This document shows positions 23,481-37,376 of a stretch of 45,817 bases of DNA, piece after piece. A program made the translations under genes and the position numbers. The first letter of the stretch is position 1. The number at the start of each line of letters is the position of its first letter. The stretch spans positions 3,384-49,200 of the forward strand of contig MFUP01000006.1 in assembly GCA_001785735.1 (NCBI GenBank), in the 5' to 3' direction. This stretch comes from Candidatus Nomurabacteria bacterium RIFCSPLOWO2_01_FULL_33_24. GTDB lineage: Bacteria; Patescibacteriota; Minisyncoccia; Phycocordibacterales; MFUP01. Below the pieces are notes generated by a model. That model ran no database searches, was not told where the DNA came from, and saw only the letters and a list, made by a program, of their open reading frames with translations.

Positions 23481-26400
23481 TTATCTAAATAAACTAGTCA
23501 AAGCATCAAGAATTTTCGCTGTTAGTGTCTTTGTGGGGATTTTATAATTTGAATAGCTAAATTGACAGAAGTTTGTTGACCCATCCCAAGTTCCCCCAGA
23601 GTTAGCGCAATCAGTTGCTGGATCTCCTCCTCCGCCTCCTCCGCTATTTCCACAATCTGAAGAACAAGTAGTTGGGGTTTCATTTCCCTGACAAGCGCCA
23701 TCCCCACAATAAAATGAAGTTCCCCCACAATCAGAAGCGCAAGAAGAAGAATCTTCAGTTGAGGCGCAAACATTGTCTCCGCAATAACCGGAGTAACTCC
23801 CTCCTCCACCACTACCACAATCTACTGGGCATGATGATTGGGTTTCATAACTATCACAAGTTCCGTTGCCACAATAAGCACCATTACTTCCGCTCATATT
23901 ACAATAACTTCCATCCCAAGTTCCCCCAGCTTGAGCGCAAGCAGTTGATCCGCTTCCGCTTGATCCACAATCCGAATAACAACTGCCACTACTCTCCCCA
24001 GAATCACAAGTGCCGTTATAGTTACAAGCAGTTGATCCGCTTTCGCTTGATCCACAATCCGAATAACAACTGCCACTACTCTCCCCAGAATCACAAGTGC
24101 CGTTATAGTTACAAGCAGTTGATCCGCTTCCGCTACTACAACCACTTACCCAAGTAGTGGAACAACTTTTTACCGTGCTTGTTCCTGGGTAAACATAATT
24201 ATTCATTGAACTATCAAAAAGAGCATTTCCCATACTATGACAACCACTTCCTAATAGATTTATTTGTTCTGAAGTACAGGTGTTTGTCTCCCCGGTATTA
24301 TTGCTTGATGTTTGACACCATCCATTAGTGGTACTGCCCACATTCCATGTCCAGACACAACTATTATTTTGACAAGCGCTTTGACTAGTATAGTTCCCGC
24401 AACTTGAGGTTAAACTAGAATTACAATCAGTAGGACAAGAAGAAGATTCTCCTGATCCACAAACATTATCTCCGCAATAACCGGAATATTGTTCCTGTAA
24501 AGGACAAGTGATTACATTTGTTCCAGAAATATCATAACAAAGACCATTATAATCTTCTTGGGTATTCATACAATAACTTCCACTATCATAATGAGGGTGA
24601 AATCCAGAAGGACATTTTCCAGAAGTTGTTCCTCCACAATCCGTTGGACAAGAATTAACCGTTTCTGTTCCATCACATACATAATTTCCGCAATATCCTC
24701 CACTATAACTTTTCGGTTGGCAGTAAGAATTACCACTATCAGAAGGAGCATACCACTCACAAGTAGTATCAGCAGTACAAGCTGATTGAGTAGTAAGAAT
24801 CCCACAACCCACTTGGTTATAATTTATTGCTGGGCAAGTTATTTTAGTGGTCCCATCAGTTCCCAAACAAGTCCCACTATAGTTTTCGCTATCATTGATA
24901 CAGAAACCACCTGACTCGGGATGCCAGTGAAATCCAGAAGGACATTTTCCAACAGTAGCACTACAATCTCTTGAACAAGAAGTTACTGATTCATCCCAGT
25001 TACAGGTTCCATCTCCGCAATAACCTTGGGTTGATCCTGAAATACAAGTATTAGTTATTGAATCCCAATAAGCTGGAGCAGGACACTTTGGTTGATTGTT
25101 AATTCCCACTGGACAATTTTCTGTGCTGTAAGTGTTTGAATCTAAATATCCAGGATAAGTTAAACTACAAGAACGAACATTATTTAATTGACAATATCTT
25201 ACCCCGTTTGTATTCCACATACTATAAGCAAATCCCGGACATGAATTTTTATCCCCAGGATATTCTTTTTGCCCACAATCTTTAAAACAGGTGGATTGGG
25301 TCTCGTTACTATCGCACCAACCATTACCACAATAACTCTGTAGAGGTTCTGGAGAACGAAAATCAATACATTCTCCAAAAATCAGACAACCATCAATCCC
25401 TATTTTTTCTTCTCGATATTGGCTACTACCACAAGGCTCCGGGTAATAACTAGGACAGGCTTTAGGATAAGGATATGGCGCTGGTGTTGTTGGTTGGGGA
25501 ATTGGACGAACATAACAAAGCGTCTTAGCTTTTTCAAAATCCCCGGTATTAATTGCCTTTATACATTCATTAGTAGGACCCTGATTAAAATCCACAGGCG
25601 GTTTATAATACGGATCAGTTCGGTACGGATCAGTTCGGAGAGAATCAATATCCTTGTAATAATTAGGATCAAATATTTCCGTCTGAACAGGAGGAGGAAC
25701 ATTTAGACGATTGGTGTATTTCAGATAAACCTCACCGGCGTCAAAAATTCCCTTTTGAGCTCCAAAAGTCATACACTCAATAGAGTTATTTGGATCATTA
25801 CAGAATTTAGAACATGATTCTGGTCCAGTACAACCGCCTGGCCCAGCCATATTTATTGGTGATTCAAAATCATCGGTTTCAAACTCCTCAGGATTAAACT
25901 CTTTAGATTTAAATTGGTCAAATATTTCTCTTCTTTTTATGTCTTGATTAACATGAAACTCAAACTCTTTTTTTATATTGTCAACCACAAATTGAGCATT
26001 AGGATGTTCCTGGGATAATTTTTCAAAAGTCCCATCACTTAATATTTCTTTGGTTGCTTGTAAGCATTTATTTCCAATTTCTGGATTAAAAGCCCCTTCC
26101 TCGCATTTCATTGGGGAAAATCCCATTTTTTCTTTCATTATTTGGTCAATTTTTCTTCCGACATCAAACTCACCCTTAAATTTATCAGGAATAAACTGCT
26201 CGCAAGCCATTGGGTCAAGAATACATTTGTTAAAATCAATATCAGTATTTTCTATGGTTCTCATAAATTCTAAAGACTTGTCAAACTCTCCTTTAGTAAT
26301 GAAACCCATTTTTACTCCAATTTCTCCGCAAGCGGTCGCTAACCCAAAATTAATCTTTTTATCCGGAGCAAAGGCCTTATCGCAAGTTTTTTTTATATTG

Positions 26401-27293
26401 CTTTTCCCGATAATTTCTTTTCCGTCTGGGGTTATTAAAACCATATCTTCCATTCCTTTTTTCTGATAATTGATTACTTCAGTTACTTGTTTTCTGGCCA
26501 AAGATAATTCTTCTGTTCCTTCCGCCCCAAAAATTTCAATAGCGATAATATCGCAAATGGCCGGGGAATTGGGACGGAGGCAAACAAGCCCCGCTTCTTC
26601 AGCCGTTATTACTCCAAGTTCTGCATATTGTCCTTTAGCTAAGGCATTTTCTAATTTAATAATTGGGTCAATATTTTTAACCCTACTCAATTTTTCTTTA
26701 GGAATGAAAATATCAATAGACTCAGATTCTTCCTCACTCAGCATCTTGGTTGCCTCTAAGCAACTAATCATTTGTTTTTTATTTAATTTATTAAAAGGCA
26801 AACTACAAATATCCATTGTTACCCCGGCCTTTTCGACAGTCGTTATAATTTTTTCTGAAGCATCTATTTTTTCCTTTGTTAATCCTAATTCTTCTGCAAA
26901 TTTTTTATCTTTCTTAGCAATTTCTTTAGCTAGTTCTAATATTTTATTATTTAATTCTTCTGGTTTTACTTCATTTAATTCTCCCAATACTTTGTCTTTA
27001 TATGATTGAGCAAAATCAAGCTGACTCTCAGTATAGACATTGTGTTTTTCGGCTAAATTAATTACTTCATCAAATTCGGTGTCTAGTTTTTCATCAAAGA
27101 TTTGTTTACATTCATCTTTAGCGGTACATCCTAAGTCTTCTGCTAAAGATTGTAATTCTGTCGGGATATCACTTTCTAGATTTTCCGTCTGGGCTAAAAC
27201 TATTGTTCCTAAAAATACAAAACCAGCTACTAAAAGAACTACAAACAATATCTTTTTATAGCTATTAATGATACTCATAATATTTTTGTTCAT
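23481..27293 (-). CDS. Large secreted Cys-rich repeat protein (CGxGxCDxxETxxxCxxDC repeats)
   Basis: 1270 aa, N-terminal signal/TM 'ILFVVLLVAGFVFLGTIVLAQ', helical N-half, C-half with many repeats such as CGNGWCDSNETQSTCFKDCG and CGDGTCNWDESVTSCSRDC. Confidence 0.85.
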   Translation of the reverse strand: MNKNIMSIINSYKKILFVVLLVAGFVFLGTIVLAQTENLESDIPTELQSLAEDLGCTAKDECKQIFDEKLDTEFDEVINLAEKHNVYTESQLDFAQSYKDKVLGELNEVKPEELNNKILELAKEIAKKDKKFAEELGLTKEKIDASEKIITTVEKAGVTMDICSLPFNKLNKKQMISCLEATKMLSEEESESIDIFIPKEKLSRVKNIDPIIKLENALAKGQYAELGVITAEEAGLVCLRPNSPAICDIIAIEIFGAEGTEELSLARKQVTEVINYQKKGMEDMVLITPDGKEIIGKSNIKKTCDKAFAPDKKINFGLATACGEIGVKMGFITKGEFDKSLEFMRTIENTDIDFNKCILDPMACEQFIPDKFKGEFDVGRKIDQIMKEKMGFSPMKCEEGAFNPEIGNKCLQATKEILSDGTFEKLSQEHPNAQFVVDNIKKEFEFHVNQDIKRREIFDQFKSKEFNPEEFETDDFESPINMAGPGGCTGPESCSKFCNDPNNSIECMTFGAQKGIFDAGEVYLKYTNRLNVPPPVQTEIFDPNYYKDIDSLRTDPYRTDPYYKPPVDFNQGPTNECIKAINTGDFEKAKTLCYVRPIPQPTTPAPYPYPKACPSYYPEPCGSSQYREEKIGIDGCLIFGECIDFRSPEPLQSYCGNGWCDSNETQSTCFKDCGQKEYPGDKNSCPGFAYSMWNTNGVRYCQLNNVRSCSLTYPGYLDSNTYSTENCPVGINNQPKCPAPAYWDSITNTCISGSTQGYCGDGTCNWDESVTSCSRDCSATVGKCPSGFHWHPESGGFCINDSENYSGTCLGTDGTTKITCPAINYNQVGCGILTTQSACTADTTCEWYAPSDSGNSYCQPKSYSGGYCGNYVCDGTETVNSCPTDCGGTTSGKCPSGFHPHYDSGSYCMNTQEDYNGLCYDISGTNVITCPLQEQYSGYCGDNVCGSGESSSCPTDCNSSLTSSCGNYTSQSACQNNSCVWTWNVGSTTNGWCQTSSNNTGETNTCTSEQINLLGSGCHSMGNALFDSSMNNYVYPGTSTVKSCSTTWVSGCSSGSGSTACNYNGTCDSGESSGSCYSDCGSSESGSTACNYNGTCDSGESSGSCYSDCGSSGSGSTACAQAGGTWDGSYCNMSGSNGAYCGNGTCDSYETQSSCPVDCGSGGGGSYSGYCGDNVCASTEDSSSCASDCGGTSFYCGDGACQGNETPTTCSSDCGNSGGGGGGDPATDCANSGGTWDGSTNFCQFSYSNYKIPTKTLTAKILDALTSLFR
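23941..24134 (-). repeat. 87-bp in-frame tandem repeat within the Cys-rich protein gene
   Basis: Units start at 23941 and 24028 with a partial third at 24115; near-identical; encode GSTACNYNGTCDSGESSGSCYSDCGSS-type 29-aa units. Confidence 0.9.
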
Positions 27294-29638: not shown

Positions 29639-30301
29639 TTATAATAAATATTTTTTTATATCTAAAAGAGATGTTAGTTGAGGACAATTGATGCTCTTAA
29701 TTTTTTCATCAACATTAACCAAGATTGACTCAATTCCCATTTCCTTCGGAATAAGATAATCGGACATTAGCTGATCACCGATATACAAAAATTCATTCGG
29801 TTTTTTGTTGGGATATTGAGAAAGCCAAAATTTATAAGCTGATTGATCTGATTTTGAAAAATTATCTTTAGAGATAATGTGTGAAAAGATTTTTTCTTTT
29901 AATCCCAATTTTTCTAATTTATCTTTTGCATTTTTAAAATTTGAACCAGTTATTAAGTCTATATTTTTATATTTATTTTTTAATTTTTCTAATAAATTAA
30001 TTACTTTCTTATCTTTAACCAAAAATTTTGAAAGATCAGCTTTTTCCAAAGCTTCCTGAATTTTATTTTGAGCGGCTGGTATCCCTAATACTTTTAAAGA
30101 TTGACTCCCGCTTAATCCTCTTCCATTTTTATACAAATCCCCAAATAGTTTCTTTGCTTTTAGAAGAGATACTTTTTTAATTTCACTAATTTTTTTATAA
30201 AGATATATTTGGATTAATTCATTTACCTCGGGTGATTTTGGATAAAGTGTTTGATCTAAATCAAAACCGATAATTTTTATTACATTTTTGTAATATATCA
30301 T
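29639..30301 (-). CDS. HAD-superfamily hydrolase, resembling pyrimidine 5'-nucleotidase subfamily
   Basis: 'IGFDLDQTLYPKSPEVNE', 'DLITGSNF', 'EFLYIGDQLMSDYLIPKEMGIESILV'. FDLDxTLYP start resembles SDT1-type enzymes. Confidence 0.8.
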   Translation of the reverse strand: MIYYKNVIKIIGFDLDQTLYPKSPEVNELIQIYLYKKISEIKKVSLLKAKKLFGDLYKNGRGLSGSQSLKVLGIPAAQNKIQEALEKADLSKFLVKDKKVINLLEKLKNKYKNIDLITGSNFKNAKDKLEKLGLKEKIFSHIISKDNFSKSDQSAYKFWLSQYPNKKPNEFLYIGDQLMSDYLIPKEMGIESILVNVDEKIKSINCPQLTSLLDIKKYLL

Positions 30302-32697
30302 TTTTGATAATTTATATAATAAATTGCTATTTCACCCAAAGGATATTTTAGTCTTTTAGAATATTTTGTTAAAAGGTAATTACAAATTTGCTCATCTTCT
30401 TTTATTTGAGAAAGAGAGTGGTTCATAAAAACAGCTGTTCCATAAACTTTATGACCAAATACATTTGCCTGAAAAAAGGCCAAGAGATCAGATTGGGGAT
30501 TAGTTTTCCCAGCGTAGTATTCTGTTAAAATTGGATTATTATGCATTACCCCTTTCTTTTCAAGATAAGTAATTGCTTTTTCTATTATATTTATCCCTTC
30601 GTAATTTTCTAATCTATCTAATATTTTACTTTCTGGCCTTTTATCTATTTTTTGTGCTTCTTTAATAAAATAAGCCACTCCACTATTATTATCTAAATCC
30701 AAAATATTATCATTTAATTTTATCGGGCCACTCGATTTGTCAATTTCACCAACTGGTTTTGAAGGTTCAGAAAGTATTTTTTTTGTTCTTTGCTCTTCCG
30801 TTAACAATAAAATATTTGCCCTATTAGAAAGAACATACATATCACCACTTTTTAATCCCAACCCGTTTTGAATGGAAGAAAAATAAGCATCATGAAGGCC
30901 AAAAATATTTTCTGGATAAGCATTCACTATATTATGAGCTCTAACGATATGAAATGAATAGAGAGTGTTGTTCTTGATAAAAAAAATGTCGTGGGTTAAA
31001 CAAGGATCATGAGTAAATTTTTCTTTTTTTGTATCTGGATCAACGGAAATTGTCATATCATTTATCGGGTCAAATCGCTGGATGATGGTAGCTTTTTTCT
31101 TGTTTTGGTTAAGTATTTTAATTGTTTCTTTTAGTTGATCAAAGCCAAAATATGATCGGGTTCTTTCCCCGTATGAATATGACCCATCATGGTCATATCT
31201 TAGCAATTGACGTTTATATTCTTCTCTCATCGCCTCGGTGCTATATTCTCCTTGTTTATATAATATTGGCATTTTTTTAAGAGAGCTTGAAACTTTTCGG
31301 TAAATTGTTAAAACAGAAGCTGTTCGAGATAATCCCTTCCAAACATCGCCATGTTCCTCGGTAATCCCCCGGATATATATTTTTTGTAAAATTCCTTTAT
31401 GGACATCAAGAAAATTATCACCATCTATGATAATAGAAGGTAAACTATCTTTGTTTATTTTAAAAATAAGATCAAAGTCCTGAATAAATGAATAATTATT
31501 TTTAGCCGCAATATTTGCTCTAGCCGCTTGAGTACCAATATCTATTCTGTGTAAAATATCCATTTCATAATTTTCAAATTGGTTGCTATCCGCTAAATAT
31601 TTAAGAAGGGGAGTGAGAGAAGGAGAAATTAATTCAAAAACTTCTTTACAAACATCAAAAGCAAGGCAAGTAACTGAAATATTATTATCCCTAGTATTTA
31701 CCCGATAATAAAATTTTTTATCAGTGATCATTTTTACTTGTGATTCAAGGGGAATTTTTTCTTTTCCTACCAAAGTATTTTTTTGAACAAATAGTTTAAA
31801 TGGAGTATCATTTATAATCTCAGTACTTATCCGGCCAAGTTCTGCTCCAAGTAATAATTGTTCCATTGGGGACAATAAATTCTTTTTTTCTTTTAGAAAT
31901 TTCATTAATGAATAAGATAAAAGAAAAACATCATCTGATGATATAAAATATATTTTATTACCAATTTTTATATCAAGTCGCACTTGTTTATTGTCCCTAG
32001 CGACTTTAAATGGTACTTTGAATAAGTCCTTAAACTGTTTCACCCTGATTTTAGGTGGTTGGAGGTGTTGAAAATCTTTCGGATTTAATTTAGTAGCAAC
32101 TTTCTTTTTTTTGGGTAACTTGGAAATTATCTCAATCATTTCGTTTAAGGAATCATAATATATTTTCTTTTTCTCATTTACCCCTCGCAAAGCTTCATAT
32201 AGTTCAAGGCTAATTTTTGGTTTTAACCACTGTAAATATGAATTAAGAATTTTACCACTCCCCTTATTTTTATGAGTAAAAATTGGAAGAACAATAATAT
32301 CTTCTCGAAACAGATTAATAATATCCTTATTGATATTAGGATAATGAGGAGAACGAGCAATACCATTCATTATATAATTTCCCTTCTTTTCAGGATCAAT
32401 TCCATTTAAAAGAACCTGAAGAAGATTAGTGCTTGGGGCAAAAGTTTCTGATTCCTCAGAAAAAAGAATCAAATATTTCATGGTTGGGTGAGCGAGGGAA
32501 TTAATTATCATTCTTTCTACTCCATCTCGATTAACGATTAATGGTCCAAGCACAGAGGTATTTATTCTATTTTTTTCTTCCAATTCATTTAATACTTGTC
32601 CGGGAGCGGTAGTATTTGTACATATTCCAACCACTCCCAACCTTCCTTCTGCGGGAATTGTTAAAATTGCATCAATAATTGGAAAACCTTCATTCAT
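30298..32697 (-). CDS. MtrA/DUF4346-like domain fused to a thymidylate-synthase-like domain
   Basis: N-term 'GPLIVNRDGVERMIINSLAHPTMKYLILFSEE...LLQVLLNGID...GIARSPHYPNINKDIINLFREDIIVLPI' matches MtrA-type pattern. C-term 'SYGERTRSYFGFDQLKETIKIL...HDPCLTHDIFFIKNNTLYSFHIVRAHNIVNAYPENIFGLHDAYFSSI' matches the ThyA Cys/Arg/Asn core. Confidence 0.7.
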   Translation of the reverse strand: MNEGFPIIDAILTIPAEGRLGVVGICTNTTAPGQVLNELEEKNRINTSVLGPLIVNRDGVERMIINSLAHPTMKYLILFSEESETFAPSTNLLQVLLNGIDPEKKGNYIMNGIARSPHYPNINKDIINLFREDIIVLPIFTHKNKGSGKILNSYLQWLKPKISLELYEALRGVNEKKKIYYDSLNEMIEIISKLPKKKKVATKLNPKDFQHLQPPKIRVKQFKDLFKVPFKVARDNKQVRLDIKIGNKIYFISSDDVFLLSYSLMKFLKEKKNLLSPMEQLLLGAELGRISTEIINDTPFKLFVQKNTLVGKEKIPLESQVKMITDKKFYYRVNTRDNNISVTCLAFDVCKEVFELISPSLTPLLKYLADSNQFENYEMDILHRIDIGTQAARANIAAKNNYSFIQDFDLIFKINKDSLPSIIIDGDNFLDVHKGILQKIYIRGITEEHGDVWKGLSRTASVLTIYRKVSSSLKKMPILYKQGEYSTEAMREEYKRQLLRYDHDGSYSYGERTRSYFGFDQLKETIKILNQNKKKATIIQRFDPINDMTISVDPDTKKEKFTHDPCLTHDIFFIKNNTLYSFHIVRAHNIVNAYPENIFGLHDAYFSSIQNGLGLKSGDMYVLSNRANILLLTEEQRTKKILSEPSKPVGEIDKSSGPIKLNDNILDLDNNSGVAYFIKEAQKIDKRPESKILDRLENYEGINIIEKAITYLEKKGVMHNNPILTEYYAGKTNPQSDLLAFFQANVFGHKVYGTAVFMNHSLSQIKEDEQICNYLLTKYSKRLKYPLGEIAIYYINYQK

Positions 32698-34462: not shown

Positions 34463-34529
34463 GTATATCTTAATTTTTCACTAATGAAAACAGTCTCACT
34501 TTTACTTTAATCATGTTAAAATGGCTTTT

Positions 34530-35714
34530 ATGAAAGACAAACAAATAGAAAAACTTATTAAACTAGAACAAAAAAGACAGAAAAATGTCATTAATTTGAT
34601 TGCCTCGGAGAATTATGTTTCTAAAGATATTTTAAAGACTCTTGGATCTCAACTCACAAATAAATATGCCGAAGGGTATTCCAAACTTCGCTACTATGGC
34701 GGTAATAAATTTGTTGATAAGATAGAAAATTTGTGTCAGAAAAGAGCTTTAAAACTTTTTAAACTTTCTTCCAAAAAATGGCATGTCAATGTTCAACCTC
34801 TTTCTGGTTCGCCAGCTAATTTGGCTGTTTATCTGGCTTTGGTTCCCTTTAGCCACTCACAGGGCAAGTCACGGGGAAAAATTATGGGAATGTCTTTATC
34901 TCATGGAGGTCATTTAACTCATGGCAGTAAAGTTTCTGTTTCAGGAAAATTTTGGAAACGAATTTCTTACGGAGTGAATAAAAAAACAGAACTTTTAGAT
35001 TATCAAGAAATAAAAAAAATTGCTCTCAAAAATAAACCTCATTTAATTATAGCTGGTTTCACTGCTTATTCTCGGAAAATTGATTTTAAAAAATTTAGAG
35101 AAATAGCTGATTCTTGTGGCGCTTATTTTATGGCTGACATGGCTCATCTGGCTGGCTTAATAGCCGGAGGAGCATTTCCTTCACCCTTTAAATATGCCGA
35201 CGTTGTTACTACTACCACCCATAAAACTTTGAGAGGGCCAAGGTCCGGATTAATCTTTTGTCGAAAGGAATTAGCTTCTAAAATAGATAAATCGGTTTTT
35301 CCAGGGCTTCAAGGAGGTCCCCATTTGAACCAAATTGCCGCCTCAGCGGTGGCCTTAAAAGAAGCTATGAGTCCCTTATTTAAAAAATATACTCAACAAA
35401 TAATTAAAAACTCTAGAATCTTGGCTGAAGAATTAAAAAAACTTGGTTGGCGGATAATTTCAAAAGGAACTGACAATCATTTAGTCTTAGTTGATACTTG
35501 GATGAACGGAAAAGGGATAGGAGGAAAAGAAGCTAGCGAAAAATTAGAAAAAGAAAATATTATAGTTAATAAAAATACGATTCCATTTGATACTAGATCC
35601 CCAATTGATCCCTCAGGGATTCGTCTAGGGACAGCGGCTGAAACCACTAACGGATTAAAAGAAAAAGATTTTATTAAAATTGCTAAAAAAATTGACAATA
35701 TTTTAAGAAAATAA
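34530..35714 (+). CDS. glyA: Serine hydroxymethyltransferase
   Basis: 'NLIASENYVSKDI', 'YAEGYSKLRYYGGNKFVDKIE', 'VTTTTHKTLRGPRSGLIFCRKE' (PLP Lys), 'PSGIRLGTAAETTNGL'. Track start 34521. Confidence 0.94.
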   Translation: MKDKQIEKLIKLEQKRQKNVINLIASENYVSKDILKTLGSQLTNKYAEGYSKLRYYGGNKFVDKIENLCQKRALKLFKLSSKKWHVNVQPLSGSPANLAVYLALVPFSHSQGKSRGKIMGMSLSHGGHLTHGSKVSVSGKFWKRISYGVNKKTELLDYQEIKKIALKNKPHLIIAGFTAYSRKIDFKKFREIADSCGAYFMADMAHLAGLIAGGAFPSPFKYADVVTTTTHKTLRGPRSGLIFCRKELASKIDKSVFPGLQGGPHLNQIAASAVALKEAMSPLFKKYTQQIIKNSRILAEELKKLGWRIISKGTDNHLVLVDTWMNGKGIGGKEASEKLEKENIIVNKNTIPFDTRSPIDPSGIRLGTAAETTNGLKEKDFIKIAKKIDNILRK

Positions 35715-35773: not shown

Positions 35774-35823
35774 TTTAATTTATAGCATTAACATACGATC
35801 GTATGTTAATGCTATAAATTAAA
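35774..35823. promoter_or_regulatory. Perfect 50-bp palindrome sharing a core with a second site upstream of the paaX-like gene
   Basis: TTTAATTTATAGCATTAACATACGA|TCGTATGTTAATGCTATAAATTAAA; overlaps stop codon of the paaX-like gene. Confidence 0.7.
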
Positions 35824-36391
35824 TAAGCCCAAATTTCTTTTTTAAATGCAGTTCGTTGTCTATATTTTCCGCCAAAATGAAACGCACATATTTTTTGGCA
35901 TTATAAAATTCAATAATGAATTCAATTTTTGTGCTACATGGATATGGACATACAAAAACTGATTTTTGAAGCTCAATCAGCCCCATCTCTCGAAAATGTA
36001 AGCGTAGGGAATCGCGCAATCTCCTTAACTTTTCCGGAACATCAAAAATTATTATGCGCCATTTGCCGTCCCACTTTACTGGTCTTTTTATTTCCATTTT
36101 ATCAATATTGAAACGCAGGGCTTTTTTCTTGCCGTTTTCATTTAGAATGAGAGTGGTAGTGCCGTCTTTATTATGTTGCTCTTTTAATAAATGTGAAGAA
36201 TAAAGGGAATTAATAGCTCTTTCCAGGGCTTGCCGGTTTATTTTCTCCCATTCTTTCGGTATCCGATTTAATATCCACCATTGTTTTTTGGGTGAGCGGG
36301 TAAGTCCCAAGGTCAGCCCGGAAAGTAAAAGCAAAAGTATTTTCTTTTGAATTGTGCCGACTTTTTTAAAATTTTTTCTCATACAGTGCAT
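35819..36391 (-). CDS. PaaX-family-like regulator with Cas2-like C-terminal domain
   Basis: 'KVGTIQKKILLLLLSGLTLGL' wHTH-like start and 'WDGKWRIIIFDVPEKLRRLRDSLRLHFREMGLIELQKSVFVCPYPC' Cas2/PaaX-C-like pattern. Confidence 0.75.
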   Translation of the reverse strand: MHCMRKNFKKVGTIQKKILLLLLSGLTLGLTRSPKKQWWILNRIPKEWEKINRQALERAINSLYSSHLLKEQHNKDGTTTLILNENGKKKALRFNIDKMEIKRPVKWDGKWRIIIFDVPEKLRRLRDSLRLHFREMGLIELQKSVFVCPYPCSTKIEFIIEFYNAKKYVRFILAENIDNELHLKKKFGLI

Positions 36392-36953: not shown

Positions 36954-37376
36954 ATGAAACTCAAAATAAAAAAACTGCATAAAGATGCGAAACTGCCGAA
37001 GTATCATCATCCCGGAGATGTCGGGCTGGATTTGTATGCGATGGAAGACATTGTTATTTTGCCTGGCGAGCATGCCAGGATTTGGCACGGATTCGCGCTT
37101 GAATTTCCAGAAGGATACGCCGCCATCATAAAAGATAAATCAAGTATTTCTAAGAATGGGCTTCATACTATGGGTGGAGTTTTTGACGCTGGTTATCGCG
37201 GAGAATACAACACGCATTTAGTAAATTTATCCGATAAACCCTATACTATTGAAGCGGGCGACAAAGTTTCTCAACTTGTTATTTTTCCAGTCGCGCTTGT
37301 AGAAGTTGAAGAAACGGGCACACTTAGCGAATCTGTCCGCGGACAGGGAGCTTTCGGATCAACTGGAAAAAAATAA
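36954..37376 (+). CDS. dut: dUTP diphosphatase
   Basis: 'HPGDVGLDLYAMED', 'IIKDKSSISKNGLHTMGGVFDAGYRGEY', 'RGQGAFGSTGKK' dUTPase motifs. Confidence 0.92.
   Translation: MKLKIKKLHKDAKLPKYHHPGDVGLDLYAMEDIVILPGEHARIWHGFALEFPEGYAAIIKDKSSISKNGLHTMGGVFDAGYRGEYNTHLVNLSDKPYTIEAGDKVSQLVIFPVALVEVEETGTLSESVRGQGAFGSTGKK

Follow-up and report, generated by a model that had tools for sequence, protein, structure and literature searches.

The described routes to dTMP employ either ThyA (PF00303) together with dihydrofolate reductase (DHFR; PF00186) or ThyX (PF02511), which makes dTMP without DHFR, as the protein reported here would. The thymidylate synthase (TS) of methanogens is represented by the family model TIGR03283, which has 201 positions, and laboratory studies of archaeal thymidylate synthases have had little continuation (PMC9931769). 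MtrA (PF04208) is the cobamide subunit of the methyl-H4MPT:CoM methyltransferase; its His84 is the cobalt ligand and Glu54 the partner of this residue (PMC4915002).

Short fusions in the order MtrA-TS-DUF4346 occur in other Patescibacteria (about 480–590 aa; L002-L005, L009, L032-L034 and others). They retain the uracil-type Asn and lie in neighbourhoods of a thymidylate type, with dCMP/dCTP deaminase and thymidylate kinase genes recognized by eye; some are located at the NusG/L11 locus. At the level of sequence, therefore, the combination of MtrA, TS and DUF4346 is already known. We found no paper describing such a fusion, although most subscription journals lay outside the scope of the search, and no paper on DUF4346 was found in the literature searched.

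The protein considered here (P0001; 799 aa) is encoded on the minus strand at positions 30298–32697 of the window, i.e., the whole stretch of 45,817 nucleotides that was analysed, and begins with an ATG codon. An earlier sequence-only reading had placed the gene correctly, and the plus strand over the same interval contains many stop codons. It contains the same three domain types as the short fusions, but differs from them in domain order, in having two DUF4346 domains rather than one, in carrying a second TS half, and in the low identity of the TS domains (about 20–30%). The source genome is 398 kb in size and 67% complete.

Domain make-up and conserved residues of the fusion

Slices of an alignment of 14 homologues were compared by hhalign with slices of the short fusions. 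The resulting map has five parts, MtrA-DUF4346-DUF4346-TS-TS(degenerate), where two, MtrA and ThyA, had first been perceived; the earlier reading had missed the second TS half as well as both copies of DUF4346. The AlphaFold model of the fusion has a pLDDT of 82.8 and a pTM of 0.71.

The MtrA-like domain occupies residues 1–150 (32248–32697, minus strand). Residues 45–143 match PF04208 (E value 1.9e-6; 28.1 bits) above the gathering cut-off of 25, the sequences of the MtrA structures 8q3v and 5laa match as well, and residues 18–137 align with the MtrA slice of the short fusions (hhalign 98%, E value 2e-13), so that the likeness seen by eye at the N-terminus holds. The replacement of the MtrA motif SEVQGH by SEESETF was also borne out: His84 of MtrA aligns with Phe86, which is present in 14/14 members, and the position of Glu54 is occupied by Asn or Ser in every one of the 14. 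Since neither the His that ligates cobalt nor the Glu that partners it is retained, the original description of a repurposed pterin/corrinoid-type module fits with respect to repurposing, while binding of a corrinoid by this domain is unlikely. With the pair gone in all members, a corrinoid enzyme was rejected as a candidate. No other Mtr subunits are present among the identified genes neighbouring the fusion.

Two DUF4346/PterinBD-like domains follow on the minus strand, the first at about residues 226–302 (31792–32022; hhalign 92%, E value 6e-7) and the second at about residues 315–412 (31462–31755; hhalign 96.8%, E value 2e-10), with spans of about 261–302 and 317–412, respectively, aligned with the short fusions. 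The gathering score of PF14251 is not reached by P0001 itself. It is exceeded by the first copy of an archaeal homologue (L063, residues 226–297; 35.5 against 29.6), and weaker matches to the second copy, at about residues 311–405, were obtained in L062, L064, L065 and L066. The name of the Pfam family and the company in which the domain is found suggest that these domains handle pterin.

The catalytic TS-like domain comprises residues 423–645 (30763–31431, minus strand) and is supported by TIGR03283, hhalign, and AlphaFold with Foldseek. TIGR03283 matches residues 423–603 (E value 9e-19); the score of 67.8 bits is below the equivalog cut-off of 174.55, and the 799 aa include four other parts besides the TS domain. 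All 14 members match this model, which is the best family match of their TS domain. The slice of residues 423–650 aligns with that of the short fusions (hhalign 99.5%, E value 2e-22), the catalytic core being aligned at about 492–629. P0001 has no PF00303 match at E ≤ 0.1 in the Pfam search, and only one of the 14 homologues reaches an E value of 0.006; likewise, the fusion has no sequence match to ThyX. The predicted TS fold is that of ThyA. The model matches human TS (Foldseek, E value 1.1e-9), and the top structural matches include the phage dCMP hydroxylase 9iqu (TM 0.77 by target length) and the CMP hydroxymethylase MilA. In a viral structure library, only known TS and hydroxymethylase folds are among the named top matches.

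The motifs P565-C566-L-T-H569, R586-A-H-N589 and P595-E-N597-I, first recognized by eye as ThyA-like, are present. By alignment, C566 (codon 31000–31002, minus strand), R586 and N597, the uracil-type Asn, correspond to ThyA Cys146 (the catalytic Cys), Arg166 and Asn177. All three are identical in 14/14 homologues, as are R541, N589, R626 and N628. Thus the proposed ThyA-like C-terminus stands as regards the fold, the Cys, Arg and Asn residues and the TIGR03283 match, but the domain is of the methanogen type, and equivalence to ThyA does not extend to the remainder of the pocket. The equivalents of Arg126 and Arg127, which are contributed by the partner subunit in ThyA, are variable (K/H/T/N/R and others), His207 is replaced by Asn628, Tyr209 by Leu630, and Asp169 is also changed. 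On these grounds the substrate pocket differs from that of ThyA: the chemistry at C6 and C5 of a uracil-type base looks preserved, while the alignment implies that the binding of phosphate and ribose must differ.

The second TS half, at residues 695–797 (30307–30615, minus strand; hhalign 95.8%, E value 7e-9, with residues 695–794 aligned to the TS slice of the short fusions), has no Cys at the catalytic place in the alignment and is termed degenerate.

Distribution, gene cassette and other thymidylate genes

Full-length relatives, the window's own included, number 14: nine from Patescibacteria and five from DPANN archaea. Among 397 genomes of the order, seven carriers were identified, the window's included, and the other six, at 53–59% identity, belong to six different families. 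A scan of public genomes gave 12 loci, five of them matching contigs of these carriers in length and position, and added two Patescibacteria and the five archaea, which are mostly labelled Woesearchaeota. By title, the bacterial relatives comprise Kaiserbacteria, Vogelbacteria, Zambryskibacteria and further Parcubacteria. Identity of the fusion is 51–73% among bacteria and 41–48% between bacteria and archaea. Since full-length homologues of the window's protein occur in other bacterial families and, at 42–45% identity, in archaea, its conservation is far beyond chance and, judged from these alignments, the open frame is a genuine gene.

The fusion is the third gene of a four-gene cassette that is present at every locus with enough sequence, its order being changed in one archaeon. 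In the window all four genes are on the minus strand. The first (P0004; 33557–34462) encodes a ParB/sulfiredoxin-like protein (PF24392, E value 7e-5), and the second (P0002; 32690–33547), which overlaps the fusion by 8 bases, a cytidine-deaminase-like protein with an N-terminal extension (PF00383, E value 3.6e-6). The deaminase family profile matches cytidine deaminase 1ux1 (E value 1e-15), and residues H205, E207, C239 and C242 are invariant. The fourth gene (P0003; 29639–30301) overlaps the fusion by 4 bases, adjoins it in the relatives, and encodes a HAD-family phosphatase (PF13419, E value 6e-12) with nucleotidase-like matches, in which the motif DLD[QH]T is kept (DLDQTF in one member). 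Pairwise identities vary in parallel across the four proteins (correlation of their matrices, r 0.60–0.85), as would be expected if they move together, although shared genome ancestry also explains this. The ParB/sulfiredoxin-like protein is among the most conserved of the cassette (47–81% identity); its AlphaFold model has no global structural match, and only about 30 residues are sulfiredoxin-like. A gene 60% identical to it lies beside a short MtrA-TS-DUF4346 fusion at L028:1-569, which is possibly an intermediate between the two gene arrangements.

Most bacterial cassettes are located beside L11/NusG, usually with divergent genes for serine hydroxymethyltransferase (SHMT) and dUTPase on the other side, and the cassette neighbours overall include dUTPase, SHMT or dCMP-deaminase-like genes. 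In the window, SHMT (PF00464, E value 1e-160) is encoded at 34521–35714 and dUTPase (PF00692, E value 9e-25) at 36954–37376, both on the plus strand. Where this flank is covered by sequence, most bacterial carriers have SHMT next to the cassette, and dUTPase adjoins SHMT in L043, L044, L046, L067 and L068. A PaaX-central/Cas2-like protein is encoded at 35819–36391 of the window, between the SHMT gene and a NUDIX gene, and a minus-strand open frame of 1270 aa at 23481–27293 has no Pfam match at E ≤ 0.01. A phage or defence origin was considered and rejected: there was no PADLOC match, no phage record and no viral contig, only a weak PHROG match to TS, and the cassette partners matched neither defence nor phage families.

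With respect to other thymidylate genes, PF00303 is found in 263/397 genomes of the order. It is absent from the six carriers other than the window's genome (0/6, all 93–100% complete), against 262/390 of the other genomes (Fisher p=0.0014; p=0.007 when the window's own genome is counted). None of the seven further carriers has a match above the cut-off, and the single weak match, an 822-aa frame in G675, seemingly corresponds to the fusion. ThyA was thus not found in 13/14 carrier genomes, the exception being the window's own. Above the cut-off, no ThyX was found in the 14 carriers, no thymidine kinase in the seven tested, and no DHFR in 14/14, with two weak DHFR matches in one archaeon. DHFR is present in 3/3 CPR genomes tested that have a canonical ThyA and absent from 4/5 genomes with a short fusion; the methanogen control sets (M. 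jannaschii and M. acetivorans) match PF00303 and, like the carriers, not PF00186. Given these negative results, most carriers show no dTMP-forming enzyme other than the fusion. Because the assemblies are incomplete and few genomes were compared for DHFR, this pattern is suggestive rather than proof; moreover, about a third of the genomes of the order have no PF00303, and cells that import nucleotides could do without a TS.

The window's genome may have a TS besides the fusion, because a 5.3-kb contig (C11; L021:4963-5349) carries at its end a fragment encoding residues 1–129 of an ordinary ThyA. Misbinning was considered and rejected: the composition of the contig resembles the rest (r=0.956), other pieces of 5.3 kb spanning a range that includes this value, and the fragment is therefore taken as possibly real. 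It adjoins a 1057-aa frame without an identity from family searches, which by eye resembles ribonucleotide reductase. Elsewhere, a genome with a short fusion has a second, different TS-like gene (L015:7268-8221; PF00303 match) with a deaminase-like neighbour. Canonical ThyA homologues of other Patescibacteria (L006, L007, L010, L029, L030, L031, L035, L036, L038, L039) have Asp at the Asn177 position (P[HF]D), i.e., the cytosine type. These are 10/10 of those brought in by the search, which is not a random sample, and they may act on dCMP.

Proposed function and alternatives

On balance, we favour reading the fusion as a thymidylate synthase that has diverged, works independently of DHFR and has domains for pterin handling built in. 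In its favour are the homology and predicted fold of the TS domain, the invariant Cys, Arg and Asn, the conserved cassette with its one-carbon and pyrimidine neighbours, and the lack of other TS types and of DHFR in most carriers; against it weigh the ThyA fragment in the window's genome, the altered pocket and the genomes of the order that have no PF00303. In the proposed reaction, Asn597 would read a deoxyuridine nucleotide, Cys566 of the TS domain would form the usual covalent adduct with its C6, and a one-carbon unit would be transferred from a methylene-pterin to C5. The MtrA-like and the two DUF4346 domains would bind or position the pterin carrier, with no corrinoid carried, while the degenerate half may stand in for part of the partner subunit of a normal TS dimer. 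Preparing the substrate or removing by-products would fall to the cassette partners: the deaminase, acting from the dC to the dU level, the HAD phosphatase and the ParB/sulfiredoxin-like protein. Where adjacent, SHMT would charge the carrier and dUTPase would supply dUMP.

The main rival, which we regard as rather unlikely, is a TS-fold enzyme with a non-thymine product (e.g., 5-hydroxymethyl-dUMP) or a nucleoside substrate, acting with the phosphatase and deaminase in a nucleoside-modification pathway. It is suggested by the loss of the canonical phosphate-binding Arg residues, His207 and Tyr209, and by the phage dCMP hydroxylase and MilA among the best structural matches. The deaminase partner is of the nucleoside type, the HAD partner has nucleotidase-like matches, and ParB-like proteins occur also in phage base-modification clusters. 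However, the uracil-type Asn597 is retained, most carriers have no other TS, dUTPase and SHMT are neighbours, and the searches for defence and phage families and for phage records argue against it.

A second alternative retains DHFR independence but assigns the reaction to ordinary 5,10-methylene-tetrahydrofolate, with a reductase that goes unrecognised recycling the dihydrofolate or a host providing folates, and the extra domains being structural only. The divergent SHMT neighbour is consistent with this, and CPR carry folate-cycling genes (PMC11974145). For the methylene-THF dependence suggested in the earlier reading, the evidence is divided, carriers having no recognisable DHFR but most bacterial ones having SHMT next to the cassette. 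We consider it improbable, since the extra domains contain residues invariant over 14 sequences, the short fusions again join MtrA and DUF4346 to TS but arrange them differently, and PF00186 is absent here yet present in the ThyA genomes tested. Finally, a non-catalytic or regulatory TS relic kept for binding, to which the Cys-less second half and the partly altered first pocket might point, is highly improbable given the invariance of Cys566, Arg586 and Asn597 from bacteria to archaea at 41–48% identity, the conserved cassette, and the lack of another TS in most carriers.

Returning to the pterin-handling synthase, we tentatively propose a wider possibility, namely a third route to dTMP besides ThyA with DHFR and ThyX. 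It would depend on a five-domain synthase that is self-contained, having its own modules for carrier binding and, within the same chain, a TS half that acts as a pseudo-partner. No DHFR would be required, three cassette proteins would take part, and the whole set would have been transferred together between Patescibacteria and DPANN archaea. In the literature searched, most subscription journals lying beyond it, there appears to be no earlier description of the five-part form, of the second TS half or of a cassette shared by bacteria and archaea.

The fusion family would fill the PF00303 gap in some genomes of the order and in some archaea, whose enzyme is missed by searches with PF00303 and PF02511. 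If the proposal is true, the roles of MtrA-like and DUF4346 domains outside methanogenesis become testable, and carrier cells can do without DHFR and without salvage of thymidine. The fusion probably lets these ultra-small cells make dTMP without any of the usual enzymes.
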